64,000 nucleotides of DNA, from contig SMSO01000007.1 of the NCBI GenBank assembly GCA_004764695.1, forward strand, positions 203,501 through 267,500. Direction: 5' to 3'. Below, piece after piece: positions 1,070 through 31,480 of this stretch. The notes under the pieces were generated by a model. That model saw only the letters and a list, made by a program, of their open reading frames with translations. It was not told the DNA's origin and made no database searches. Both the position numbers and the translations under genes were made by a program. Each line of letters starts with the position of its first letter. Position 1 is the first letter of the stretch. This DNA is from Schizochytrium sp. TIO01. Its lineage: Eukaryota; Sar; Bigyra; Thraustochytrida; Thraustochytriidae.

Positions 1070-2872
1070 ATGAGTAGCGAAGGAGCAGGGAGCTCGAGCA
1101 ACAACAAGGCGAAGTCCAAACCATTCGTCGATTTGTGCCACTTTGATGATAGCGATAGCGATAGCGATAGCGATAGCGATGACGACCACGACCAGGGCAA
1201 CACGGAATCCCACGACTCCTCTGACCCGCTAAAACATGAGCAAGACGAACCTGGACCATCTTTGCAGCGTACAGGAGCGTCGAGCTCGTGTACTCAAGCT
1301 CAAGGTGCAGAGTCTGAGTCTGAATCTGCAGAAGAAAAGCACAACCATGAAGAAATACTGAACAACTGCTTTGATAATGAAGCAGATAGCAGCGGGCCAG
1401 CGGATGAAGCAGATGGCAGCGGGCCAGCGGATGAAACAGATAACGGCACAGTGGGGAACGACGCAGCTCGAAGAGAGACTGCTGTCCCAAGTAACACAGC
1501 AAAGATAACTAAAGGTCCCCAAGCTCAACGTCGAATTTCTAAATCGCCCAATTCTCCCGATTTGGTGAAAAAGACCAGAACTCTGCTTATGAAAATCGTC
1601 GACTATTTTCTTGATGAGTCGGACTCTCCTCTGGATGTAAAGGTTGATTTTTACCAGATAGACAACGGCACAAAACTAAAGCTGAACAATGATGAGGTCT
1701 CTGCAAGAGATGTCGGACTGACACCTGGGCTTCTGTGGAGAAGTCTCAATACCCTTGCTCTTAACATGAACGTTGATGAAGATAAAAGAACAGAAGCACT
1801 CAACGAAGTCCTTGCCATGGACAATCAGGGGTTCAAAATCGAGAAGTTTGAGGCATGTGAAGGAAGGGAGGACAATCTGATTGGGTCGTTTAAGATTCAC
1901 TTAAATGAAGGAAAGGCTTCCGGAAAACCACGCGTGGCTGGTACTAAACATGCTCAGAGCGAATCGGATAAAAACGAAGGAAAGGCTTCGGATGATGAGG
2001 ACTCAAATGAGGATCAGGATTCGCTCCGCCGCTCAAGCCGTCGCCAGACAAAAACCTCATTTTATCATAACACTGAGCACTGTCGCGGTTCTAAACGCAA
2101 ACAAGAAACAGATGAGGACGCAGATGATGCAACGGATCGAACTTCGCGCCGCCGTTCAAGCCGAAAGGCTTCGGATGATAAGGACTCAAATGAGGATCGA
2201 ACTTCGCGCCGCCGTTCAAGCCGTCCCCAGTTGCAAACCTCATTTCGTCATAACACTGAACATTGTCACGGTTCTCAACGCGAACAAGAAACGGATGCTG
2301 AAGCAGACACTTTGTCCAAGAAGGCTCAAACCCAATTCGTCAGTAGCAGTAGCTGCAATGTTAAGAACTCCGCGACCACTAGTCGTAGTGATGATGATAG
2401 CATCAGTAACCAGAGTAATAGCGATGATGAGGTCATCAGTCATAGTGGGGGAAGCAACACAAGCAGCACCAACCAAAGTGATACAGCTTCCATCAATACG
2501 TCTACGTCTGGCACACCCTCAATCGAAACTGCTCAAAACAATATTGCAAACGAAGCTGTTGCTTGGAGAAGATTCAACATGTTGTATTCGGCGATTTCCC
2601 AATATAAAAAGCCTCGGCACTTAAAAGAGATGCTTTTAGAATTAAAGAGCGAAGATGATGTTAGGAAAACACTCGAATTGTGGTTCAGAAACAATTCCAG
2701 TGATACAATGATTCAGCTCGTACACGAGCTTCTTATAGAAGAAGGTGAAGAAGACAATTCTAGGATAATACAATTGTTTTATGAAATGGCTCCTCGTGTT
2801 TTAAAACATTCGTTCGAAAACCTCATGAAAAAGGAATTCGCAGACGCCTTAAGGTTACCCAGATTAGCATGA
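1070..2872 (+). CDS. Paralog A: acidic/Ser-rich cassette-repeat protein, family unknown
   Basis: First member of the three-gene array; product 600 aa. I do not recognise the family. Layout: a short Ser/Asn N-terminus, then VDLCHF followed by a (DS)n acidic run resembling a phospho-dependent SUMO-interacting motif; a conserved central domain of about 115 residues ending in the 'CEGREDNLIGSF' type motif; two basic cassettes (RRSSR..TKTS..HNTEHCRGSKRKQ type) separated by acidic DED linkers; a Ser/Asn/Thr-rich linker; a helical charged C-terminal domain. The ATG at 1070 aligns with the starts of B (5547) and C (10905). An in-frame ATG at 992 would add 26 residues, but it aligns with sequence just beside the TATA box in C and so probably lies upstream of the transcription start. 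Composition suggests a nuclear protein (inference). No introns are needed. Confidence 0.72.
   Translation: MSSEGAGSSSNNKAKSKPFVDLCHFDDSDSDSDSDSDDDHDQGNTESHDSSDPLKHEQDEPGPSLQRTGASSSCTQAQGAESESESAEEKHNHEEILNNCFDNEADSSGPADEADGSGPADETDNGTVGNDAARRETAVPSNTAKITKGPQAQRRISKSPNSPDLVKKTRTLLMKIVDYFLDESDSPLDVKVDFYQIDNGTKLKLNNDEVSARDVGLTPGLLWRSLNTLALNMNVDEDKRTEALNEVLAMDNQGFKIEKFEACEGREDNLIGSFKIHLNEGKASGKPRVAGTKHAQSESDKNEGKASDDEDSNEDQDSLRRSSRRQTKTSFYHNTEHCRGSKRKQETDEDADDATDRTSRRRSSRKASDDKDSNEDRTSRRRSSRPQLQTSFRHNTEHCHGSQREQETDAEADTLSKKAQTQFVSSSSCNVKNSATTSRSDDDSISNQSNSDDEVISHSGGSNTSSTNQSDTASINTSTSGTPSIETAQNNIANEAVAWRRFNMLYSAISQYKKPRHLKEMLLELKSEDDVRKTLELWFRNNSSDTMIQLVHELLIEEGEEDNSRIIQLFYEMAPRVLKHSFENLMKKEFADALRLPRLA
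2008..2310 (+). repeat. Basic/acidic cassette repeats inside paralog A (2 copies)
   Basis: Two tandem protein modules of about 40 residues, each with an RRSSR-type basic patch, a Q-x-TS-F-x-HN-T-EHC core and a K/R-rich tail into an acidic D/E linker. The nucleotide sequences are close enough to imply expansion by slippage or unequal exchange. Paralog B has four copies and C has two. Confidence 0.75.
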
Positions 2873-3070
2873 TGTTGGGAATAGCAACAATCTAACTGCA
2901 TAAATAGGCTATAACTTCTTTCGAATGATATCGTTTTCATTAATTATGTTATCGAAGTATATATATCAAATCAGCCAGTTACCTTTTCCATAGCTTACCA
3001 TTTGTACATCACGCAAAGTCATAGGACATAGAGGTCATTAGACTCAAGCTTGATTATAATGAATCACACA

Positions 3071-3672
3071 GTGCTGAGATCTCCAGGCGAACGAACTAGT
3101 GGACAAGACATTGCTAGGGCTTACAATAGAGCAAGAGGAGGCAGCCAGATTCATGTGGCTGCCAGAGTCAAGAATCAAAGTGCGACTACATATTACCTAG
3201 ATCCAAGTATAGTGTTATTGGAATCGATAGCTGAAGAGGTTGAATTAACCTAAACCTATCAATCTCGAACACTGTTCAAGAGTATCTAGCTTCCTCAATT
3301 ACTACATGAATTCATCTGACCTGGAATTCATTCACCAGGACAGAAGTTTGCTAACTCTTGAATCAACCTTCATATTGCAGAGTAGCTTGTGCTGTGAAGC
3401 GTGCAGAAGTAGTCTGACAAGAATGGCGAGCTCAGGAGAAAGAGAAAGAGGATGATATATGAGTTATTGGGGTTTGGGGTCTGGTTGCAGGCAGGGATGA
3501 ATGTATGATGTCAGTCCAACGGATAGGAGAACTAGGATAGGATAGGTTTGGTTAGGTTAGGTTAGGCAGTAGCTGTATATTACTTCAATACTTCATAAAG
3601 CATTCATCAAGACTCTTGCCTTCATCTTTACAGTCAACTTCAAGCTGACCAGAATCAATTTTCAGCGCAGAG
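3071..3672. other. About 600-bp insertion in the 3' flank of A relative to B and C
   Basis: The flank of A matches that of B up to 'AATCACACAG' (A about 3070, B about 7920) and resumes at 'CCCTTG..ACATG/GCATG' (A about 3672, B about 7921). The extra 600 bp in A contain a short ATG-initiated ORF (3059-3253, 64 aa, starting in the shared flank, unrecognised) and a solo LTR. Either A gained the segment or the B/C ancestor lost it; the LTR inside favours a gain. Confidence 0.65.
3376..3590 (-). mobile_element. Solo LTR, same family as the 29.6-31.1 kb copia remnant
   Basis: A 215-bp segment closely similar to 28859-29063 and to 29560-29753, the last of which abuts the 3' end of the copia RNase H region and so is a 3' LTR. 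Written in element orientation it begins near TATTGAAGTAATATACAGC and ends near GCTACTCTGCA. It is flanked on both sides by CTTCATA (3368-3374 and 3591-3597), consistent with a target-site duplication of about 5-7 bp. It contains (TTAGG)3 at about 3552-3566. No internal coding region remains, as expected of LTR-LTR recombination. Confidence 0.72.
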
Positions 3673-3891
3673 CCCTTGTTACATGTGACTATCTGCTATG
3701 AGACATCCACTTCAACCGGATCGAATCGATCCAAGCAACATACTGAAAATAGTATTCATAACAGCTTGAAGTTGAAAGAGAGAATTGATGTACGATAAAC
3801 TTAGAATCATTCATCTTCTTGAACATCTGGATTATTGACCTCCCAATTCAAAAGTCTTGAAGCCTTATCCTCGCGCCTACTTTAGTCTTCA

Positions 3892-4749
3892 GATGGATCA
3901 ATGATACTGGCTAGATTATTTGATTCTCGAATGGAGGCAAACATTCGAGGAGTAGTTTGCTCAGAAGGCATGGTTACTGGTTTCCTTGCATTATTTGGGT
4001 TAGCAGGCTGGATGTGAGAAAATGAGTAAGCTTTTTGGAGTTCTTCAAACGGCGCACGTGCTCTCCCAAATGCTTGCTGCCCGGAATGCAGCCAGATTTC
4101 ACCAAGTATATGAGCAAACGGTGTCTCAATTGCAAGTTTTTGCGTATTGTAGTAGGGAAGCGATGCCGGGTATTCTCAAGGCACTGTTTGAGAAACTCGG
4201 AAATGGTGTTGCGTATAGTTTTGATACAGCCTTTATTTCTGTAAGTATATTTACGCCCTATAAAAAGCCAAGTGCGATCAAATGTGATAATTTTACGAGC
4301 GTCTTTCACAGGACCCATCGACCTTTTTCGTGAGAGATTGCATGGCCGCAATACGGACAGAATACCCGGCTTGTATCTTTTGAAACATCTTGCTTGGGTA
4401 CCAAGCCCCGGCTGCTCTTGCATAGAAGGTCTCTGTTGAGCTCCCAGCCTCACACTTTGGCCACCATAACTAATGATCAGACATGACATACGCATCTTTA
4501 ACAGTCATATGCATGACCTTTTCAGTCACTTCCTTGAGAATTCCATTTCAAATGAGTGATAATCTTCTTTCGCTCTTCCTTGTTTTCCTGATTTTCGTCT
4601 ACTACGCTCTCCTCATCGACAACGCAATCTTGCTCATGACCGGTTTTATCCTCGACAAACTCAGAAGGCTTGTTCGTATCATCTGCTTTTGTTCCATCTT
4701 CTTCTTCTTCTTCCAGCTCGAGCATCTGCCTCTGTTTCCACTCCAGCAT
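3892..4749 (-). pseudogene. NOB1-like pseudogene (3' portion, frameshifted)
   Basis: Coding-like sequence runs on the minus strand through several frames. In order: a Glu/Asp-rich segment from an ATG at 4749; a stretch reading ILKEVTEKVMHMTVKDAYV; a zinc-ribbon-like FCPYCGH (4342-4362); TIRKNLQLR near 4150; and a C-terminal stretch of 'APFEELQKAYSFS' then 'NPNNAR', ending at a TAA at 3892. This order resembles the C-terminal half of NOB1, the PIN-domain endonuclease of 40S ribosome maturation (zinc ribbon FCPKCG, then 'KNLILRE', then a terminal 'VF..RNPN' motif). The PIN domain is absent and at least three frame changes would be needed, so I call it broken. Family assignment is from memory of motifs and is tentative. 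Confidence 0.4.
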
Positions 4750-5546
4750 CAGCTATGCTTGCCTTACACAATTGCTAGGTTCGAAACCACCTAACCATCT
4801 GAATCTGCAAACCAATTCAAGAGCTTAGGATGCAGGACCAAATAAACAATACCTGACTCCCGAAACATGGCACCAACCACAACCAATTAATTCATGTGCG
4901 AAGCTCACCATGTGACAGGAATGCGAAATGTACAACCCTTTTCACCATCCTCTCCAGTGTTGTTGTGCCGAAGTTTTATATGACAACACTGTTATCCTAG
5001 TGAGGAGAACGATGAAATTTTTTTCAGAGGTCCTCTCAATATATTAACAACGAAAGCTTCCACTTGAATATGTTACACTCTGTTACTGCAGAAGCGGTGG
5101 CGTGGAGAGGAAGATACTAATTTTGTGATGAAACTCATCACAAGATCAACTATGTGTCCCACTTTGAATTTGACCCTCACATGGAAACATGCTATTCACC
5201 TCTCGAGACAATACCTTAAAGTTGATAAATGCATGAAGTACAGTACAGTCAATAAAGAAAACAAGACTATATTTCAACCAAAGTCATATATGTTTGGTCA
5301 CTTTTTAGTCTCTTAGCACCACCAGCTATAGCCACCTTACCTTAAAGTTAATATTCTCTGTTTCCCATATTCCCCGTGTTCCCATGTTACAAGAACAGGC
5401 CTATCCTCGCAAACTCTTTATGTACGGAGGCCCCCCCAAAAGTAAAAAATTCTTTGTCACAAAAGTAAGAATTCCAAGCACAAGCAGAGCAGAATCAGAT
5501 TGAGGGTGGAAAGACAGTGCATGAGCATCGCGGTTACCGAGAAATC
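4750..5546. other. Intergenic region upstream of paralog B
   Basis: No convincing gene. Only the last 60-70 bp before the B start resemble the A and C upstream regions (the 'CAGATTGAG...AAGACA' block); the rest is unrelated. At the place where C has TATATAA, B reads AAGTAAGAATTCC, so no TATA box is evident. Confidence 0.5.
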
Positions 5547-7652
5547 ATGAGCAGCGGAGAAGCAGAAATTCCGAGCAATGACAGTGCGAAGTCCAAGGGG
5601 CTCTTGAAATGGCGCGAAATAAGCGATGACGAGAGTGACTCAGGTTCGTTGTCAGACGATGAGCAGGAAGAGCCGGGACCAAATCTACAGCTCACAGGAG
5701 CGTCGAGCTCGTGTACTCAAGCCCAAGAAGATGACAGCGAAGATAAAAGGGTTCCACAAGTTGCAGAGTCTAAGTCCGAATCTGCAAAAGAAAAGCACAA
5801 TCATGGAGAAATACCGTACAATGGCTGTGACAACCAAGCAGATAGCAGCGGCCCTGCAGATGAAGCTGGTGACGGCAAGGTGGGGAACAACGCAGCTGAG
5901 AGAGAGACTCCTGGCCCAAGCAACATAGCAAAGATGGCTGAGGGTCCCCAAGATCAACGTGAATTGCCCAAATTGGTGAAGAATGCAAAATCTATGCTTA
6001 AGATAATTACCCAGTATATGTCTGATAAGTATCGTAAGCCAGACCCTCCTTTGGTTATAAAAGTCGATTTTTTCGAGACTCGCAACGGGCAAAGGGGCAC
6101 GAGACTAGAACTGAATGATGAACCTGTCTCGAAAGAAAACATCAGACATGGACCTGGACAAATCTGGAGTAGTATCAAGGCCCTCGTTTCTGGAATGAAC
6201 GTTGACGAAGATACAAGAATAGAAGCACTCAACGAAGTCCTTGCCGCGGACGACTGGAAGTTTAAAATCGAGAACTTTAGGGAATGTGAAGGGAGAGAAG
6301 ACCATCTGATTGCGTCGTTTGAGATTCACTCAACTGACCAAGCATCTTACAGAAAACGGCACTTGCTTGATACTAAACATGCTCAGAACGAATCGAATGA
6401 AAACGAAGGAGAGGCTTCAGATTGTGAGGACGCAGAACATACGGCCTTGGATGATGAGGTCTCAGATGAGGCTTCGGATAGTGATGATGGGGCTTCGAAT
6501 GATGAGGACTCAGATGATGCAAAGGATCGAAATTCGCGTCGCCGCTCAACCCGTCTTCAGAAACAAACCTCAATTAGTCATAACAATGAGCGCTGTCGCA
6601 GTTCTAAACGCAAACAGGAAGCAGATGAGGACGCAGATGATCAGGACGCAGATGATCAGGGATCAGATGATCGGGACACAGATGATGGAAATACAGATGA
6701 TGAGGACTCAAATGATGCAAATGATCAAGATGCGCCCCTCCGCTCAACCCATCTTCAGAAACGAACCTCAATCAATCATAACAATGAGCACTGTCGTGGT
6801 TCTAAACTCAACCGAGGAACAGGTGCCGATGTAGACGATGCAAAGGATCGAAATTCGCGCCGCCGCTCAGCCCGTCTTCAGAAACAAACCTCAATTAATC
6901 ATAACACTGAGCACTGTCGCGGTTCTAAACGCAAACAGAAAGCAGATGAGGACTCAAATGAGGATCAGGATTCGCTCCGCCGCTCAAGCCGTCGCCAGAC
7001 GCAAACCTCATTTTATCATAACACTGAGCATTGTCACGGTTCTCAACACAAACGAAAAACGGATGCTGAAATCGGCACTTTGTCCAAGAAGGCTCAAACC
7101 CAATTCGTCAATAGCAGTAGCTGCAGCGTTGAGAACTCCGCGAGCACTAGTCGTAATGGTAGTGATTGTCCGAACATCAGCAACCAGAGTAATAGCAATG
7201 GCGAGAGCAACAGTTGTAGTATGGGTAGCAACGCAAGCAACTCGAACCAACGTGATACAACTGCTATAAATACAACTACGTCTGACACACCCTCAATCGA
7301 AGCTGCTCAAAACAATACTGCAAACGGAGATACTGATTGGAGAAAATTCAAAATGGTCTACAAATCGTTTCCTAAAGATGCGAAGCTTCAGTCAGCAAAA
7401 GAAATGCTCAGAAAAGTAAAACACGAAGATGTTGTTAGGAAAATACTACGATTGTTGATAGAAGACGAAGATCGTGAGTATTTAATGTCTCAGCTGATAA
7501 AGGAGCTTTTCGTAGAAATAGGTGGAGAAGATATTGTCGAGAAAATACTCGGATTGTTGAACGAGATGGATTACGGTGATAAAAAACGTTTCGAGCACAA
7601 GCTCATAATGAATGCCTTCATGGACTATCAAAACACTATATGCACCAACTGA
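5547..7652 (+). CDS. Paralog B: acidic/Ser-rich cassette-repeat protein, family unknown
   Basis: Longest array member, 701 aa from the conserved ATG. The N-terminus differs from A and C: the VDLC-acidic motif is replaced by KGLLKWREISDDES and a longer acidic run. A central domain (roughly residues 140-265) contains NVDEDTRIEALNEVLA and CEGREDHLIASF. Then come DED/DDA-rich acidic spacers alternating with four basic cassettes of the RRRS-RLQKQTS-HNNEHCRGSKRKQ type, a Ser/Asn-rich linker, and a helical C-terminal domain of about 105 residues (DWRKFKMVYKSF to the end). From about 7017 onward B is virtually identical to C. The second cassette is diverged (APLRSTHLQKRTS). No catalytic motif is visible. 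A role as a scaffold or nucleic-acid-associated protein is only a guess from composition. Confidence 0.72.
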   Translation: MSSGEAEIPSNDSAKSKGLLKWREISDDESDSGSLSDDEQEEPGPNLQLTGASSSCTQAQEDDSEDKRVPQVAESKSESAKEKHNHGEIPYNGCDNQADSSGPADEAGDGKVGNNAAERETPGPSNIAKMAEGPQDQRELPKLVKNAKSMLKIITQYMSDKYRKPDPPLVIKVDFFETRNGQRGTRLELNDEPVSKENIRHGPGQIWSSIKALVSGMNVDEDTRIEALNEVLAADDWKFKIENFRECEGREDHLIASFEIHSTDQASYRKRHLLDTKHAQNESNENEGEASDCEDAEHTALDDEVSDEASDSDDGASNDEDSDDAKDRNSRRRSTRLQKQTSISHNNERCRSSKRKQEADEDADDQDADDQGSDDRDTDDGNTDDEDSNDANDQDAPLRSTHLQKRTSINHNNEHCRGSKLNRGTGADVDDAKDRNSRRRSARLQKQTSINHNTEHCRGSKRKQKADEDSNEDQDSLRRSSRRQTQTSFYHNTEHCHGSQHKRKTDAEIGTLSKKAQTQFVNSSSCSVENSASTSRNGSDCPNISNQSNSNGESNSCSMGSNASNSNQRDTTAINTTTSDTPSIEAAQNNTANGDTDWRKFKMVYKSFPKDAKLQSAKEMLRKVKHEDVVRKILRLLIEDEDREYLMSQLIKELFVEIGGEDIVEKILGLLNEMDYGDKKRFEHKLIMNAFMDYQNTICTN
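6520..7065 (+). repeat. Basic/acidic cassette repeats inside paralog B (4 copies)
   Basis: Four modules of about 36-40 residues starting near 6526, 6724, 6838 and 6961. Each has an R-R/P-x-S-x-R-x-Q core, then TS, then HN-x-E-H/R-C, then a basic tail and an acidic spacer. Spacers in the first gap are themselves short DD-Q/G-DAD repeats. Paralog C has lost, or never gained, the two middle copies. Confidence 0.78.
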
Positions 7653-9491
7653 CCTTGGAAATAGCTACAAATGACAACAAACTAAAAGCATAAATAGGCT
7701 ATATCTTCTTCAACAGAAGTACATTATTTTCATTAATTATGTTATCGATGGATTTTCTCATTTTTACTTTTTGAACTTTGTTGAAACCTTTGAAAATGAG
7801 CAAAAAGGAAAATACCAAACTAGCCAGCCAGCCTTTCTACAGCTCACCATTAGTACATCACGCAAAGTCATGGAACATAGAAGTCATTAGACTCAAGCTT
7901 CATTATACTCAATCACACAGCCCTTGATGCATGCGACTATCTGCTATGAGGCATTCATTTCAACCGGATTGAATCGATCCAATCAGCACACTGAAAATCA
8001 AATTCAGAACAGTTTGAAGTTGAAAGAAAGATTCGATGTACGATCAACTTAGAATCATTCATCTTCATGATCATTTGAATTAGGAGATGGTGAAAGTGAG
8101 ACTTGAAAGCTATAGGAGCCTGTTCATCTGAGAACCGAAATTTAGACTGCAAGAATTCTTGCTCTCTGGTAACTATAAGTTTATTTATTGATAGCACAAC
8201 ATGGAGTTGGATAGATATCCGTAACGGGGGCGACCAATTTCGAGTCTGATAGTTTTGATCTATCAATTTCTATATCTTGTATCGATAAACTTCAATGGCA
8301 TGGTATGGCATGGCATGGCATGATATATTTTTTGAAAGTTGGACATCACCCAAAAGACTCTAGTAGATATTCAATGACTAGATTACTATTGTACACACTA
8401 GTCTCGATCTATCGCCCTCGACTTGCTGGACTACTCGAAAATAAATGTTTCCAGTTAGACAGAACCTTTGAACTGGAATTTAAAGATAGTATTGCCTCGG
8501 GTTAGGATGAGTTTGTTGGCATGAAATAAGTTCTTGACTTGTGGTAGTATCATTAAGTTTTGTAAGCTGTGGCGCATCGAAAATTCAGCTACTGCGATTG
8601 AAATGGGGCTTATGTAGGATTAGGATTTGATATAATAAAGAGGCATCCTGACTTCAAGGAATGCACTTAACCTATACTAAATATGTATGTATAGATTGTC
8701 CGAAATAGTGTGATGTAAAAAAAGTGAATGATAGGGAGTTTGGATAGAAAAGTATTTTTTGGTTTCAGTTATTGGCTTGAAAACTTAGTTACTTCATAAG
8801 GGAATAATCAATTAAGGAAAACAAGCAATCTTGAGTAAGCTCTCAAAATGTTTGGGACGAAGTAGAAGAGATGGCGTCAAGTTTTAAGTTGCTCGATAAT
8901 AAATAGAAACACAGAACATCTACATTTTACCTATCGAAGCGAGTTAATAAAAAAAGACGATTTAAAGAACTCACTTTAGAACCTATATCCGAAGTATTTT
9001 AATAAAGGGGTATACCCCTCAAATACGGATTCTACTATAAATCGAGAGGTGATTCAAACGAGCTTCTGAAATTCAGTTGATAATATAGTCCCAGCCTCCC
9101 TTTGAGCTTTATCTACAATCTGAGTAAGATGATATGAACTGAGCCTCGTCTGCATCGTTCTTGTGGATAGTTTGGAGTCGATACACTACTAGCTGCGCGT
9201 GAATCATATAGAGGGAAAGTTAGGAGGCCTCTCTTTATAGGCTTTCCTTCTGAGTTTGTTGACGTATATTAACCGCAGAGTCTAAAACAACGCAGTTTGA
9301 GAGGTGCTATTATTTTGTTTGTGAGGTCCGGATCGTAAATTCTCAGTAGCGTGAAGTAGATTTCGATGGAGATGAATGGCTTTGTGAGCACATCGCACGT
9401 TGGAGTAGACCAAGTAGGGGTTAAGGGGTCAACAAATGAATTTGAAATTCCATGTTTCGTTCTAGGACCCTCCATCCACCCTCCGTACTAA

Positions 9492-10814
9492 CTCAGAGTA
9501 CTTCTATGGGCAGTTTTTTTTTTTTTTTTCCCACTTGCTGTCTACTATGGACTGCTTAAAAGCAATGTAGCCGTGGTCCGGTAATTGTTGCAACGCTCCA
9601 ACGAGAATTTTGACCGAATTTGTTATGACGTCATGTGTTGGGGTTAAAACGTTTTCCGATTAAAGGACAATTGAAAAATAAATATGTGCAGTTTTTGACT
9701 ACGCAGGCCAAATTGCAACCACCAGGGCGGGCGGAAAAGTGGTAGTGATGCGACATCGATTTGAACATTTTATTGTATACCCCTGTTAGTCAGTTCCCCG
9801 TGTTCCTGCAGGGTGTCTGCCCACTGACCGACTCAGTAAGTGCATTTTATGTATAAAAAGGAACGTCGCAATGATTTCGACTATCCGATATACGAACCTC
9901 TATTTTGTTTTATATTTGAGAGGAAATTCCCCTCTGACCTCCTACCTGCCCTACCCACCTACGTACGTACCTCCATAAACCTATGCGCAAAACTCTTAAA
10001 GGAAGTGTTCCACTGAGAGGGCTCGAGAGTTCTTCAGTTCAGAGTCGCTCTCAGAAATATCCAGTTACTCTTCTTTTTAAAAGTGTTTTTTTAATCTTGA
10101 GAGCAGGGTAGAAAATGCTAACTGGAAGCTTGTTTTTTCTTTTTTTAATTAAAAACCTTGACCGGAGAATGATGAATACGAGGGAAACATTACTAAGACT
10201 CTACGTCCTCCACAATACGAAAAGATGGACGTCCTTACAGTCATTTGATTGTTCCGAAAGTCTGAACCTATAGCAACAGGAGCATATCTCGGCACAGTCT
10301 CAGAGATGAATAGTGGTCGACCTCTCTACTGTAGTTTGGCAGACACCTCATGCCATCCCCTATATAACTAAGTTCTGTTCGCAATACATACGCACCATCT
10401 TATAGATAAGAGATTTAATACAGTGTCGTGCTATTATCAGAAGACGTTGCGCTTTAAAGTGGAACTGTTTGGATCATGCCGTATAAGCTTTAGGAGGGAA
10501 AATCGCCATCAGAAGTATCAAAATAGATCAATCATACTCAAAACTGGTAAGGTGTTTTTGAGTACTTAAAAAGGAAGAGCCAGAGCAAACCAATTTTGCC
10601 AATTAGATATTTGAGTACTAGGTAAAACATAATAATTCGATTTTTTACTTGAAAAAGATTTTAAAAACGAAGAATCACAGTTTTGAGGGCTTTTAGTTTG
10701 GAAGTTTGGGGAAGAGTATTTTAAGATTAATATTTAATTGAGAGAGGGAAACCCAATTTGAAACTGATTTTTTAAACCTTTCGTCGCACAGTGTAAACAA
10801 CATGTAAAGAAAAG
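9492..10814. other. Upstream region of paralog C, A-type
   Basis: A poly-T run lies near 9516-9530. From about 9860 the sequence resembles 1-980, the upstream region of A, and not the upstream region of B. No ORF of note. This supports a mosaic origin of C. Confidence 0.6.
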
Positions 10815-10821
10815 TATATAA
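10815..10821 (+). promoter_or_regulatory. Putative TATA box of paralog C
   Basis: TATATAA, 90 bp upstream of the C start codon. The equivalent position is TATGAAAG in A and has no TATA-like sequence in B. Confidence 0.45.
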
Positions 10822-10904
10822 GCCAAGCGAAACCAGAGCAGAACCAAAGCAGAACCAGATTGAGCTTGGGAAGACAGAGCATAAGCATCACGGTTACCGA
10901 GAGC

Positions 10905-12755
10905 ATGGAAAAAGCAGGAGGTTCAAGCAACAACAAGGAGAAGTCCAAACCATTCGTCGATTTGTGCTACCTAAGCGACAGCGATAGCGATGACGACCAC
11001 GACGAGGGTAACACGGAATTCCACGACTCCTCTGACCCGCTAAAACATGAGCAAGACGAACCGGGACCATCTTTGCAGCGTACAGGAGCGTCGAGCTCAT
11101 GTAATCAAGCCCAAGAAGATGACAGCGAAGATAAAAGGGTTCCACAAGTTGCAGAGTCTAGGTCCGAATCTGCAAAAGAAAAGCACAACCATGGAGAAAC
11201 ACCATACAATGGCTGTGACAACGAAGCAGATAGCAGCGGCCCTGCAGATGAAGCTGGTGACGGCAAGGTGGGGAACAACGCAGCTGAGAGAGAGACTCCT
11301 GGCCCAAGCAACATAGCAAAGATGGCTGAGGGTCCCCAAGATCAACGTGAATTGCCCAAATTGGTGAAAAATGCAAAATCTATGCTTAAGATAATTACCC
11401 AGTATATGTCTGATAAGTATCGTAAGCCAGACCCTCCTTTGGTTATAAAAGTCGATTTTTTCGAGACTCGCAACGGGCAAAGGGGCACGAGACTAGAACT
11501 GGATAATAAACATGTCTCGAAACTAAACATCGGACATGGACCTGGACAAATCTGGAGTAGTATCAAGGCCCTCGTTTCTGGAATGAACGTTGACGAAGAT
11601 ACAAGAATAGAAGCACTCAACGAAGTCCTTGCCGCGGACGACTGGAAGTTTAAAATCGAGAACTTTAGGGAATGTGAAGGGAGAGAAGACCATCTGATTG
11701 CATCGTTTGAGATTCACTCAACTGAACAAGCATCTTACAGAAAACGGCACTTGCTTGATACTAAACATGCTCAGAACGAATCGAATGAAAACGAAGGAGA
11801 GGCTTCAGATTGTGGGGACGCAGAACATACGGCCTTAGATGATGAGGTCTCAGATGAGGCTTCGGATAGTGATGATGGGGCTTCGGATTATGAGGATTCA
11901 GATGATGGGGCTTCGAATGATGAGGACTCAGATGATGCAAAGGATCGAAATTCGCGCCGCCGCTCAGCCCGTCTTCAGAAACAAACCTCAATTAATCATA
12001 ACAATGAGCACTGTCGCGGTTCTAAACGCAAACAGAAAGCAGATGAGGATGAAGATGATGCAAAGGATCGAAATTTGCGCCCCCGCTCAACCCGTCTCCA
12101 GACGCAAACCTCAATTGATCATAACACTGAGCACTGTCACAGTTCTCAACACAAACGAAAAACGGATGCTGGTATCGGCACTTTGTCCAAGAAGGCTCAA
12201 ACCCAATTCGTCAATAGCAGTAGCTGCAGCGTTGAGAACTCCGCGAGCACTAGTCGTAATGGTAGTGATTGTCCGAACATCAGCAACCAGAGTAATAGCA
12301 ATGGCGAGAGCAACAGTTGTAGTATGGGTAGCAACGCAAGCAACTCGAACCAACGTGATACAACTGCTATAAATACAACTACGTCTGACACACCCTCAAT
12401 CGAAGCTGCTCAAAACAATACTGCAAACGGAGATACTGATTGGAGAAAATTCAAAATGGTCTACAAATCGTTTCCTAAAGATGCGAAGCTTCAGTCAGCA
12501 AAAGAAATGCTCAGAAAAGTAAAACACGAAGATGTTGTTAGGAAAATACTACGATTGTTGATAGAAGACGAAGATCGTGAGTATTTAATGTCTCAGCTGA
12601 TAAAGGAGCTTTTCGTAGAAATAGGTGGAGAAGATATTGTCGAGAAAATACTCGGATTGTTGAACGAGATGGATTACGGTGATAAAAAACGTTTCGAGCA
12701 CAAGCTCATAATGAATGCCTTCATGGACTATCAAAACACTATATGCACCAACTGA
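10905..12755 (+). CDS. Paralog C: acidic/Ser-rich cassette-repeat protein, A/B mosaic, family unknown
   Basis: 616 aa. The first ATG of the frame is at 10905. Residues 1 to about 65 follow paralog A (SNNKEKSKPFVDLCYLSDSD, then DDDHDEGNTE), including the SIM-like VDLCYL-SDSD motif. From GASSSC-x-QAQ onward the sequence follows B almost exactly. The central domain, two basic cassettes, Ser/Asn linker and helical C-terminal domain are all present. The acidic segment between the central domain and the cassettes has one more DDGASDYEDS-type unit than B. It is the only one of the three with a clean TATA box, so it may be the best-expressed copy (inference). Function unknown. Confidence 0.72.
   Translation: MEKAGGSSNNKEKSKPFVDLCYLSDSDSDDDHDEGNTEFHDSSDPLKHEQDEPGPSLQRTGASSSCNQAQEDDSEDKRVPQVAESRSESAKEKHNHGETPYNGCDNEADSSGPADEAGDGKVGNNAAERETPGPSNIAKMAEGPQDQRELPKLVKNAKSMLKIITQYMSDKYRKPDPPLVIKVDFFETRNGQRGTRLELDNKHVSKLNIGHGPGQIWSSIKALVSGMNVDEDTRIEALNEVLAADDWKFKIENFRECEGREDHLIASFEIHSTEQASYRKRHLLDTKHAQNESNENEGEASDCGDAEHTALDDEVSDEASDSDDGASDYEDSDDGASNDEDSDDAKDRNSRRRSARLQKQTSINHNNEHCRGSKRKQKADEDEDDAKDRNLRPRSTRLQTQTSIDHNTEHCHSSQHKRKTDAGIGTLSKKAQTQFVNSSSCSVENSASTSRNGSDCPNISNQSNSNGESNSCSMGSNASNSNQRDTTAINTTTSDTPSIEAAQNNTANGDTDWRKFKMVYKSFPKDAKLQSAKEMLRKVKHEDVVRKILRLLIEDEDREYLMSQLIKELFVEIGGEDIVEKILGLLNEMDYGDKKRFEHKLIMNAFMDYQNTICTN
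11935..12165 (+). repeat. Basic/acidic cassette repeats inside paralog C (2 copies)
   Basis: Two modules with the same consensus as in A and B, starting near 11941 and 12061. The second (RNLRPRSTRLQTQTS) is a hybrid of the first-type and last-type cassettes of B. Confidence 0.75.
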
Positions 12756-14799
12756 CCTTGGAAATAGCTACAAATGACAACAAACTAAAAGCATAAATAG
12801 GCTATATCTTCTTCAACAGAAGTACATTATTTTCATTAATTATGTTATCGATGGATTTTCTCATTTTTACTTTTTGAACTTTGTTGAAACCTTTGAAAAT
12901 GAGCAAAAAGGAAAATACCAAACTAGCCAGCCAGCCTTTCTACAGCTCACCATTAGTACATCACGCAAAGTCATGGAACATAGAAGTCATTAGACTCAAG
13001 CTTCATTATACTCAATCACACAGCCCTTGATGCATGCGACTATCTGCTATGAGGCATTCATTTCAACCGGATTGAATCGATCCAATCAGCACACTGAAAA
13101 TCAAATTCAGAACAGTTTGAAGTTGAAAGAAAGATTCGATGTACGATCAACTTAGAATCATTCATCTTCATGATCATTTGAATTAGGAGATGGTGAAAGT
13201 GAGACTTGAAAGCTATAGGAGCCTGTTCATCTGAGAACCGAAATTTAGACTGCAAGAATTCTTGCTCTCTGGTAACTATAAGTTTATTTATTGATAGCAC
13301 AACATGGAGTTGGATAGATATCCGTAACGGGGGCGACCAATTTCGAGTCTGATAGTTTTGATCTATCAATTTCTATATCTTGTATCGATAAACTTCAATG
13401 GCATGGTATGGCATGGCATGGCATGATATATTTTTTGAAAGTTGGACATCACCCAAAAGACTCTAGTAGATATTCAATGACTAGATTACTATTGTACACA
13501 CTAGTCTCGATCTATCGCCCTCGACTTGCTGGACTACTCGAAAATAAATGTTTCCAGTTAGACAGAACCTTTGAACTGGAATTTAAAGATAGTATTGCCT
13601 CGGGCTAGGATGAGTTTGTTGGCATGAAATAAGTTCTTGACTTGTGGTAGTATCATTAAGTTTTGTAAGCTGTGGCGCATCGAAAATTCGGCTACTGCGA
13701 TTGAAATGGGGCTTATGTAGGATCAGGATCTGGTATTATAAAGAGGCATCCTGACTTCAAGGAATGCACTTAACCTATACTAAATATGTATGTATAGATT
13801 GTCCGAAATAGTGTGATGCAAAAGAAGTGAATGATAGGGAGTTTGGATAGAAAAGTATTTTTTGGTTTCAGTTATTGGCTTGAAAACTTAGTTACTTCAT
13901 AAGGGAATAATCAATTAAGGAAAACAAGCAATCTTGAGTAAGCTCTCAAAATGTTTGGGGCGAAGTAGAAGAGATGGCGTCAAGTTTTAAGTTGCTCGAT
14001 AATAAATAGAAGTACAGAACATCTACATCTTTCCTGGTCAACCGAATCAAAAAAGACAATTTGAAGTTCTTGATCTGGAACATTTATCCGATGTATCTTG
14101 ATAAAGGGACACCCCCAAAAATAACGATTATACTATAAATTGTGAGGTGATTCAAAGCATGTTTTGAATTGAAGTTGATACAAATATGATGTAGTTCCAG
14201 CCTCCCTTTGAGCTTTATCTGGAATCCGAGTAAGATGATATGAACTGAGCTTCGTCTGCCTCGTTCTTGTGGATAATTTGGAGTCGATACACTACTAGCT
14301 GCGCGTGAATCATATCGAGGGAAAGTTAGGAGGCCTCTCTTAATAGGCTTTCCTTCTGAGTTTGTTGACGTATACCAACCGCAGAGTCTAAAACAACACA
14401 GTTTGAGAGGTACTATTATTTTGTTTGTGAGTTCCGCATCGTAAATCCTCAGTAGCGTGAAGTAAATTTCGATGGAGATGAATGGCTTTGTGAGCACATC
14501 GCACGTTGGAGTAAACTAAGTAGGGATTAAGGGGTCAACAAATGAATTTGAAATTCCATGTTTCGTTCTAGGACCCTCCATCTACCCTCCGTACTGAGAA
14601 GTGATACAGATACGTCTTTATGATGTCGAGGCAGTTCAATAATATTCTCTTCTTGAGCAGTCAGGCTAAGAACAGAGTATGATGATTCATGAAGGAGAGG
14701 TTCAGCGTACCTATACACGCATATTTTTCTCCAGGTGCATATTGATATGTAACAAAACCAATGAGAACAAACGTGTTTTTAGGATAATTTAAGGAAACA

Positions 14800-29765: not shown

Positions 29766-30167
29766 TCACACGTCAGGACCTGAAGCATCAAGTAAGCGAC
29801 TAGCGTGTTTCCAATGAGATGGTGCTGCAAGTGGTTTGGTGAGTAAATCAGCTACATTTTCTGTGCCTTTAACATGGTGTACCTTGAGTAATTGGTTTTG
29901 TCTTCGATGAATCAGTACTCCAAGTTGTACTGCGAGATAACCATTTGTACCATTAACTTCTTCCTTTTTGATTGTGTTTACTAATGCTTGACAATCTATA
30001 TATAACTGTATTTCATTGATGTAAATGTTCATGTCTGCTAAAAGTTGTCGAATGGATTCTGCTGTGAGAACTCCTGCAACTGCAGCAATTAGTTCAGCTT
30101 CGTGAGTATTTCTTGCAACTGTAGACTGTTTGGTTGTTTTCCATACAACAGGACTATCATTTATCAT
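29766..30167 (-). pseudogene. Copia RNase H fragment
   Basis: 133-codon open segment with the typical copia RNase H core: VVWKTTKQSTVARNTHEAEL (catalytic Glu of EAEL), YIDCQALV (catalytic Asp), KVHHVKGTENVADLLTKPLA near the end. It removes the RNA strand in RNA-DNA hybrids during reverse transcription in intact elements. Here it is preceded directly by the linker segment with no reverse transcriptase between, so it is a deletion relic. The ATG is incidental. Confidence 0.82.
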
Positions 30168-31075
30168 AACAATATGTGTAATTGTTTATTATCTGTGTTC
30201 GTTTTAACAAGAAAAGCAAAAAGTTCCCGTTCCTGCGGATATATCGTAGAAATGATTAGGTCATGTGAGGTCTCCTCTTTTGATAGAGAATTAATTTCCG
30301 AGAAATCTAACTCTGTATTCGTCATATTACGTTTTCGTTTCAGACGATTAGTATAGTATCGGTATTTATTTGCAGCGCCTTTGGCACTGGGACCAACATT
30401 TAGTGGTACATGAGGTTTGGGAGTCCTTTTGGATCTCCGATGACTATCGTGTGCATGGACTGAACTATGTTCTAGTTCCATGTCTTCACGAGCATGTTCA
30501 CTATTGGATTCACGGTCATCATTATTTACCTCAGAATGACTAACGTGTTCACTATTGGATTCACGGTCATTATGATTGAGTTCCGGATGACTAACGTGTT
30601 CACTACTTGATTCACGGTCGTTATGATTTGCCTCCCGACGACTAGCGTGTTCACTACTGGATTCACGGTCGTCATTGTTTACCTCCGGACGACTAGCGTG
30701 TTCACTATTAGATTCACGGTCATCATTATATAGTGGGGTATTAGGAGTGATAAAAGATTTAGTGTTATTAACTGCGGAGGGTAAAGCAGGTAGTTTCTGA
30801 TACAGTTTTTCGTCAATCAGTTTATTTGATTCTTCACGTGTCCAATGAGTAATTAGATCAGGTGTCAGAGCGGTTTCTATCGACATTGCACGCTGACGAG
30901 TTTGTTCAGTGAATGCTTGAACGAAAATCTTGACTTCACGTGTTTGAAGGATGCTGGATTTGTCTCTGGGTAAGACATGTTCAGTTCCATGAGTGTAACC
31001 ATTAGCATATCCAAGGAAAACGCCTAGTCCACGACTACCTTTTGAAAAGAGGAATGAGAATCCTTGCTGAGTCAT
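30164..31075 (-). pseudogene. Copia integrase C-terminus plus tandem-repeat linker fragment
   Basis: 303-codon open segment. The beginning reads GLGVFLGYANGYTHGTEHVL and then a TREVKIF-like end, the usual copia integrase C-terminal (GKGYRL-type) region. Five copies of a 17-residue acidic repeat follow (NDDRESNSEHASR type), then a basic stretch (RRSKRTPKPHVPLN). The frame stops at 30164, overlapping the RNase H segment by four bases in a different frame. The expected reverse transcriptase domain of about 250 residues is absent. Confidence 0.72.
30488..30731 (-). repeat. 51-bp minisatellite inside the copia remnant
   Basis: Five in-frame copies of a 51-bp unit encoding a 17-residue N-D-D-R-E-S-x-S-E-H-x-S-x-x-x-x-N motif, with mild divergence between units. 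Confidence 0.85.
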
Positions 31076-31480
31076 AAGAGACGTTGACAGTAATGTGTGT
31101 GCTCAACAAACTATATCAAATTGAAAACTTGTTGAAATTACTGTCTCCCCAGTTTACATCCGACACCTAACCTGTAGCGGGAGTATAAAACAAGATGAGG
31201 TTCCTTACTAAAGATAAACCCACAAAGCATGGCATTCTAGAGATTTCAAGTGCATGCTTGGTAAAGAACGATTGCATTAAATGAATCGACTATCGCCCTA
31301 AATAACTCCTTACTATAGTGCTATAACTACTGCAAACATTAGTAGTGTATATTGTGTCTAAAAAGGTGGTGTCTAAAAATCAAATAAGACGCTTATTTTA
31401 ATCGTGGGGACGGGGGCGGTGGAGAAGAGCAATTCTGCAACCAAAGACTTCGGTAAAGGCGGGACTGGCAGCGCAGGCAG
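31076..31480. other. Spacer between copia remnant and dioxygenase gene
   Basis: Contains an imperfect inverted repeat: GACAGTAAT (31086-31094) pairs with ATTACTGTC (31137-31145), with CAACAA/TTGTTG inside. No 5' LTR is detectable here. Confidence 0.45.

Follow-up and report, generated by a model that had tools for sequence, protein, structure and literature searches.

What kind of protein family is encoded by three long forward frames that follow one another in the first part of a 64,000-nucleotide stretch of the Schizochytrium sp. TIO01 genome? This stretch, the window of the present analysis (C6:203501-267500), belongs to a 64.06-Mb assembly of 37 contigs, and a first-pass annotation had read the frames as a tandem array of three genes, A, B and C, from an undescribed, rapidly evolving nuclear or secreted-pathway family with a variable number of basic cassettes. 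Our tentative answer, possible rather than probable, is a thraustochytrid family of nuclear, SUMO-reading adaptors, in which the central domain (D1) and the C-terminal tail would be partner-binding surfaces evolving under conflict. The three genes themselves proved to be intact, homologous single frames:

1070-2872, forward strand: gene A, 600 amino acids, one central domain, two full cassettes, intact single frame
5547-7652, forward strand: gene B, 701 amino acids, one central domain, four cassettes, intact single frame
10905-12755, forward strand: gene C, 616 amino acids, one central domain, two cassettes, intact single frame

At the amino acid level B and C are 92-95% identical and A and B 56-58%, a likeness far beyond chance. 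All three can be aligned over their full length in the domain order that the annotation had described (acidic N-terminus, central domain, basic cassettes in acidic spacers, Ser/Asn linker, helical C-terminus), and its range of two to four cassettes per gene also holds. The two regions on which most of the following rests are located as follows:

1559-1915, forward strand: D1 of A
5970-6341, forward strand: D1 of B, structure modelled
11358-11729, forward strand: D1 of C
2546-2869, forward strand: C-terminal helical domain of A
7320-7649, forward strand: C-terminal helical domain of B, modelled with six helices
12423-12752, forward strand: C-terminal helical domain of C, identical in protein sequence to that of B

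The array is real but is only part of the family. By whole-genome search, A, B and C are three of eight paralogues, the other five being clustered on contig C5; no further member was found in the genome with the central domain, the cassette or the tail as query, and the cassette alone retrieved no carrier beyond these eight. The C5 members are:

L021:1072-2196: P0, D2 only, no cassette
L015:2948-4900: P1, D1 and D2, one cassette
L015:5731-7023, minus strand: P2, D1 only, no cassette
L015:7696-9393: P3, D1 and D2, one cassette
L016:2445-4418: P4, D1 and D2, one cassette

D2 is a second, diverged central domain present in P0, P1, P3 and P4; it retains about 20-25% identity to D1, and the homology of the two is detectable (E 2e-5 for D2 of P3 against D1 of P2). 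Common to all eight members are the alpha/beta central domain and the acidic N-terminal part. A C-terminal helical motif of about 30 residues (consensus RRFxxLYxMAPxDVxLQLLKESL) is found in the members other than P1, where the tail has diverged and the motif is barely recognisable; it is diverged in A, B and C too, which stretch it to about 110 residues. Since two members, P0 and P2, have no cassette at all, the cassette is an accessory expanded on C6 and not the family-defining part.

Selection acts differently on the parts of these proteins: D1 and the C-terminal part are under diversifying selection, whereas the D2 type and the acidic N-terminus are under purifying selection. The codon models behind this statement were a custom implementation with naive empirical Bayes (NEB) site calls, run on seven paralogue sequences. 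For D1, pairwise dN/dS (NG86) between C6 and C5 copies, P2 excepted, was 0.65-1.04, the M0 omega was 1.19, and M2a fitted better than M1a, with twice the log-likelihood difference at 20.9 (p 3e-5) and still at 19.4 without gene C. None of 161 parametric simulations under the fitted M1a reached this latter value (maximum 8.35), and the signal was kept in sequence triplets, for which there is a single topology (p 0.02, 0.009 and 0.035). The C-terminal part likewise gave M2a-type positive selection (p 0.0013; 1.3e-7 for the triplet of A, B and P4), in a test that takes in the Ser/Asn linker, which is hard to align. Omega was 0.48 for D2 and 0.55 for the N-terminus, neither with a significant positive class. 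The D1 codons of highest posterior (S21, D35, D45, E46 and Q90 in the domain numbering of A) all five fall in predicted loops or turns when mapped by hand onto the structure model.

Together with stop-codon simulations, these models bear out the rapid evolution that the annotation had suspected. When the family was evolved neutrally along its tree, a mean of 6.5 of the seven copies acquired a stop, and all seven stayed stop-free in 0 of 2000 runs; as the real frames are all intact, a decaying array of pseudogenes is excluded. A low synonymous rate was also considered as a source of the high omega, and the synonymous sites do not appear unusually constrained, because B and P4 share about 72% identity in their 3' non-coding flanks, a level comparable with the synonymous divergence.

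The copies have not evolved independently of one another. Gene C is a chimera, its first 200 or so bases deriving from an A-like gene and the remainder being B-like: summed over the listed bins, the informative sites at 10905-11120 join C to A 46 times and to B 7 times, whereas those at 11120-11760 join C to B 141 times and to A 7 times. At 12200-12755, 156 sites join C to B and none joins it to A, B and C being identical there. As the 2.7-kb B/C block around it has a mean identity of 95.9%, this 3' end without differences appears to be a tract of recent conversion. The cassettes lie at:

2027-2113, forward strand: A cassette 1, DNA 90% identical to B cassette 4
2210-2296, forward strand: A cassette 2
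6540-6626, forward strand: B cassette 1
6738-6824, forward strand: B cassette 2, diverged (LRSTHLQKRTSINHNNEHC)
6861-6947, forward strand: B cassette 3
6978-7064, forward strand: B cassette 4
11958-12044, forward strand: C cassette 1, 99% identical to B cassette 3
12081-12167, forward strand: C cassette 2

Gene A carries one extra, truncated cassette (TSRRRSSRKASD) besides its two full ones. Cassettes are exchanged between genes, because A cassette 1 is nearer to B cassette 4 than to A cassette 2 (to which it is 84% identical) and C cassette 1 is nearly the same as B cassette 3. The nearest C6 relatives of the P3 and P4 cassettes are A cassette 1 and B cassette 4, which suggests that the type formed by B1, B3 and C1 is a later expansion on C6. 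Cassette number, which the annotation had singled out as the variable trait, does differ from 0 to 4 across the eight paralogues; the strongest selection, however, is on the central domain and the C-terminal part, and the central domain has itself been duplicated in the C5 cluster. A second forward frame is open over the cassette regions of all three genes (1905-2624, 6310-7269 and 11839-12372, in stretches of 144-239 amino acids) and is probably a by-product of repeat composition.

As far as the searched libraries reach (Pfam, NCBIfam, the PDB, viral contigs and predicted viral structures, and prokaryote genomes), the family appears to be undescribed, in keeping with the annotation's failure to recognise it, and neither the central nor the C-terminal domain matched a characterised family by sequence or profile. 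Against Pfam and NCBIfam, the eight members gave nothing beyond sub-threshold noise (DUF761 at E 1.8, DUF4704 at E 0.3, and DS8_antiphage at E 0.04 with 11.6 bits against a cut-off of 790). The PDB yielded nothing credible by sequence or by profile, and the viral contigs, searched with D1 and D2 profiles, and the prokaryote genomes yielded no relative.

D1 is predicted to be an independently folding alpha/beta domain, in the order helix-strand-strand-helix-helix-strand-strand; the model of D1 from B, built from an alignment with only A and C, has a predicted local distance difference test score (pLDDT) of 79 and a predicted template modelling score (pTM) of 0.77. The tail, modelled from the same three sequences, would form six helices (pLDDT 75). 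With a cut-off of E<=0.001, Foldseek matched neither D1 nor the tail to any PDB structure, and D1 to none of the predicted viral structures. In direct structural comparison, where a Z under 8 may mean merely a common arrangement, the tail best resembled generic helical repeats (Z 7.8), and D1 the second N-terminal domain of the bacterial secretion ATPases PilB, PilF and DotB (VIA Z 4.9 over 93-101 residues, root-mean-square deviation 3.6-3.9). The likeness to the latter is weak: sequence identity is 7-10%, and the family has no ATPase domain. An Alba-like fold (beta-alpha-beta-alpha-beta-beta) for D1 seems doubtful, several Alba-type chains reaching a Z of only 2.1-2.6 and Pfam giving no Alba match. 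The central domain is thus modelled as folding on its own, with no clear structural relative.

What the family might do is suggested by its motifs. SUMO-interaction motifs (SIMs) have a hydrophobic core of four residues, hhXh or hXhh, bordered by acidic or phosphorylated positions (PMC8616421), and a loose SIM-like pattern with a Ser/acidic run occurs in five of the eight N-termini, with the cores FVDLC in A and C, VVDLC in P4, VVYI in P1 and FILT in P0; P3 has a close variant, AELCHL-SDSDSD. The pattern is attained by 1-5% of shuffles per copy, and these motifs are suggestive only. Two of them lie in the window:

1124-1180, forward strand: SUMO-interaction-like motif FVDLC of A, followed by the acidic run SDSDSD
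10953-10997, forward strand: SUMO-interaction-like motif FVDLC-YLSDSDSDDD of C

The cassettes, by eye and regular expression, look like bipartite nuclear import signals (RRSxRL...SKRK). A signal-peptide-like hydrophobic stretch was not seen by eye, the N-termini being polar and acidic. The nuclear half of the annotation's "nuclear or secreted-pathway" proposal therefore finds support in the cassettes, whereas its secreted half does not fit such starts, and we infer that the family is probably nuclear.

It is from the SIM-like N-termini, the import-signal-like cassettes and the polar starts that we arrive at the nuclear SUMO-reading adaptor. The acidic N-terminus would dock on SUMO by way of a SUMO-interaction motif to which the Ser/Asp run adds strength; nuclear entry would be the task of the cassettes, whose charge may also keep the protein bound to nucleic acid or chromatin; and D1 and the tail would bind an ever-changing partner, which would drive their fast evolution. 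This partner would most plausibly be a genetic parasite, either a DNA virus or a mobile element, because thraustochytrids carry active mirusviruses (PMC12911909). The conflict in this scheme is read from the sequences, and several points weigh against the scheme as a whole. Gene conversion between copies can inflate codon-model tests; the models were custom-built, called sites by NEB and drew on just seven sequences; and the eight copies are non-independent observations. B has no more than a degenerate form of the SIM-like motif and P2 has none, and the core in A, C and P4 (F/V-V-D-L) is, in A and C, looser than the aliphatic consensus. The resemblance of the cassettes to nuclear signals was, again, judged by eye and by regular expression. 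No viral or mobile-element partner was identified, and nothing links the genes to a virus.

The alternative that survives best, somewhat unlikely in our judgement, is a charge-patterned nuclear or nucleolar scaffold that drifts fast under weak constraint, with no contest at all. Nopp140 and treacle are built of acidic serine-rich blocks alternating with basic blocks, in variable repeat number, and the present family resembles them in both respects, its acidic spacers alternating with basic cassettes in proteins of 14-21% D/E and 13-16% K/R. Lineage-restricted paralogues are, moreover, often fast-evolving, and gene conversion is documented here. Drift does not readily explain why M2a is the better-fitting model, with some sites at omega above 1, and constraint is not weak overall, given the purifying selection on the D2 and N-terminal parts of these very proteins. 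Unlike Nopp140 and treacle, the family also has a central domain of predicted alpha/beta fold and a distinctive cassette (HN-x-E-H-C), and Pfam finds no LisH or SRP40 C-terminal domain in its eight members.

The adaptor reading can also be sharpened into a restriction or nuclear-body family directed against DNA viruses (mirusvirus or herpes-like) or transposons, a version that we consider unlikely. Restriction factors are typically marked by diversifying codons and by changes in copy number (PMC4687636); active mirusviruses are hosted by thraustochytrids, as mentioned, and frames for herpes-type origin-binding helicases are present in the genome. Set against this are the many causes that positive selection can have and the failure to find any physical or regulatory link to a virus. 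Among animal proteins, PML, Sp100 and Daxx offer the closest comparison, with a hydrophobic SUMO-interaction core and, behind it, a run of Ser and acidic residues (VVVI and a Ser/acid stretch in PML; PMC8616421) and with nuclear-type signals. We claim no homology: the D1/D2 domain is unrelated to them by sequence, and in the eight members Pfam finds no RING, B-box or coiled coil as in PML/TRIM and no HSR or SAND as in Sp100. The fullest form of the idea, in which both clusters would constitute a new SUMO-linked nuclear restriction family with a new alpha/beta recognition domain, diversified through gene conversion and positive selection against persistent mirusviruses or other nuclear DNA parasites, is likewise unlikely.

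Selfish spore- or gamete-killing genes would be another source of rapid change. In the wtf genes of fission yeast (Schizosaccharomyces), which diverge rapidly, coding repeats grow and shrink in number without loss of frame and gene conversion acts between non-allelic copies (PMC9562144), and variable in-frame cassettes, clustering, conversion, chimerism and fast divergence are all found here. In contrast to wtf products, which are membrane proteins with multiple transmembrane segments made as poison and antidote isoforms, the present proteins are acidic, charged and single-framed and show no hydrophobic membrane-like segments by eye; no poison/antidote pair was seen, and nuclear-type motifs are present, so that we regard a killer family as very unlikely. 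Capture and amplification of coding sequence left by a mobile element or virus, to which the dispersed repeat of about 0.75 kb in the intergenic stretches of the array might point, is scarcely more than conceivable, the genes being confined to two clusters and not dispersed, with no relative on viral contigs and no transposon or viral domain in Pfam. A secreted or secretory-pathway family, for instance of the ectoplasmic net, is not supported and is hardly credible: although surface proteins frequently have Ser/Asn-rich linkers and repeats of variable number, the starts have no hydrophobic signal-like stretch, cysteines are few and the basic cassettes are of bipartite type.

Taken alone, a fast-evolving cluster of orphan paralogues is nothing unusual in a protist; it is the between-domain selection contrast, the chimerism and the set of motifs that raise this family above the commonplace. 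Families that evolve fast and undergo gene conversion are often signs of an evolutionary contest, and protist antiviral defence is poorly characterised, with Aurantiochytrium available as a culturable protist that has active mirusviruses (PMC12911909). Should the family be engaged in a contest of this kind, the domains and sites identified above could be taken straight into deletion and binding experiments. If there is no contest, an undescribed domain, predicted to fold, and a cassette shuffled between genes would still have been documented.

Several features of the surroundings may be recorded. The 3' flanks of B, P3 and P4 share about 72% identity over 0.5-0.95 kb, with no obvious common frame:

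7653-8602, forward strand: 3' flank of B, about 72% identical to the 3' flank of P4 on C5, no shared frame seen

Within it, the block 7916-8082 is 86% identical to the 3' flank of A; over about 165 bp, the A copy of this block is 84-86% identical to those of B, C, P3 and P4, and the block may be regulatory. The dispersed repeat (66-79% identity) lies at 8700-9480, at about 13800-14590 and at C6:202400-203056, with copies on many contigs. Rfam gave no match anywhere in the window. About 4.6 kb upstream of the window start, at L017:875-2434, is a PIAS-type SUMO ligase (SAP, PINIT, MIZ/SP-RING) with a SUMO-interaction-like C-terminus (DVIELLDSDDED); its position beside the array may be a coincidence.

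Two nearly identical long frames, L028 (C7:106172-109456) and L029 (C6:568788-572072), are the herpes-type helicase loci; of the two, L028 was compared with Pfam and fell in the herpesvirus origin-binding protein family (E 4e-21), and L029 is on the same contig as the array, about 350 kb downstream. Weak D2 matches within these loci (C7:107672 and C6:570288, E 0.3) were taken as chance. Also present in the genome is a polyunsaturated fatty acid synthase of PfaA type, whose acyl-carrier region gave repeated matches; taken with the helicase frames, it points to a thraustochytrid, most probably Aurantiochytrium. At 30100-31150, a frame of 312 amino acids with 51-bp repeat units (DDRESxSEHxS) and no Pfam match is part of an element that recurs on more than a dozen contigs, in several cases within 80 kb of a contig start.

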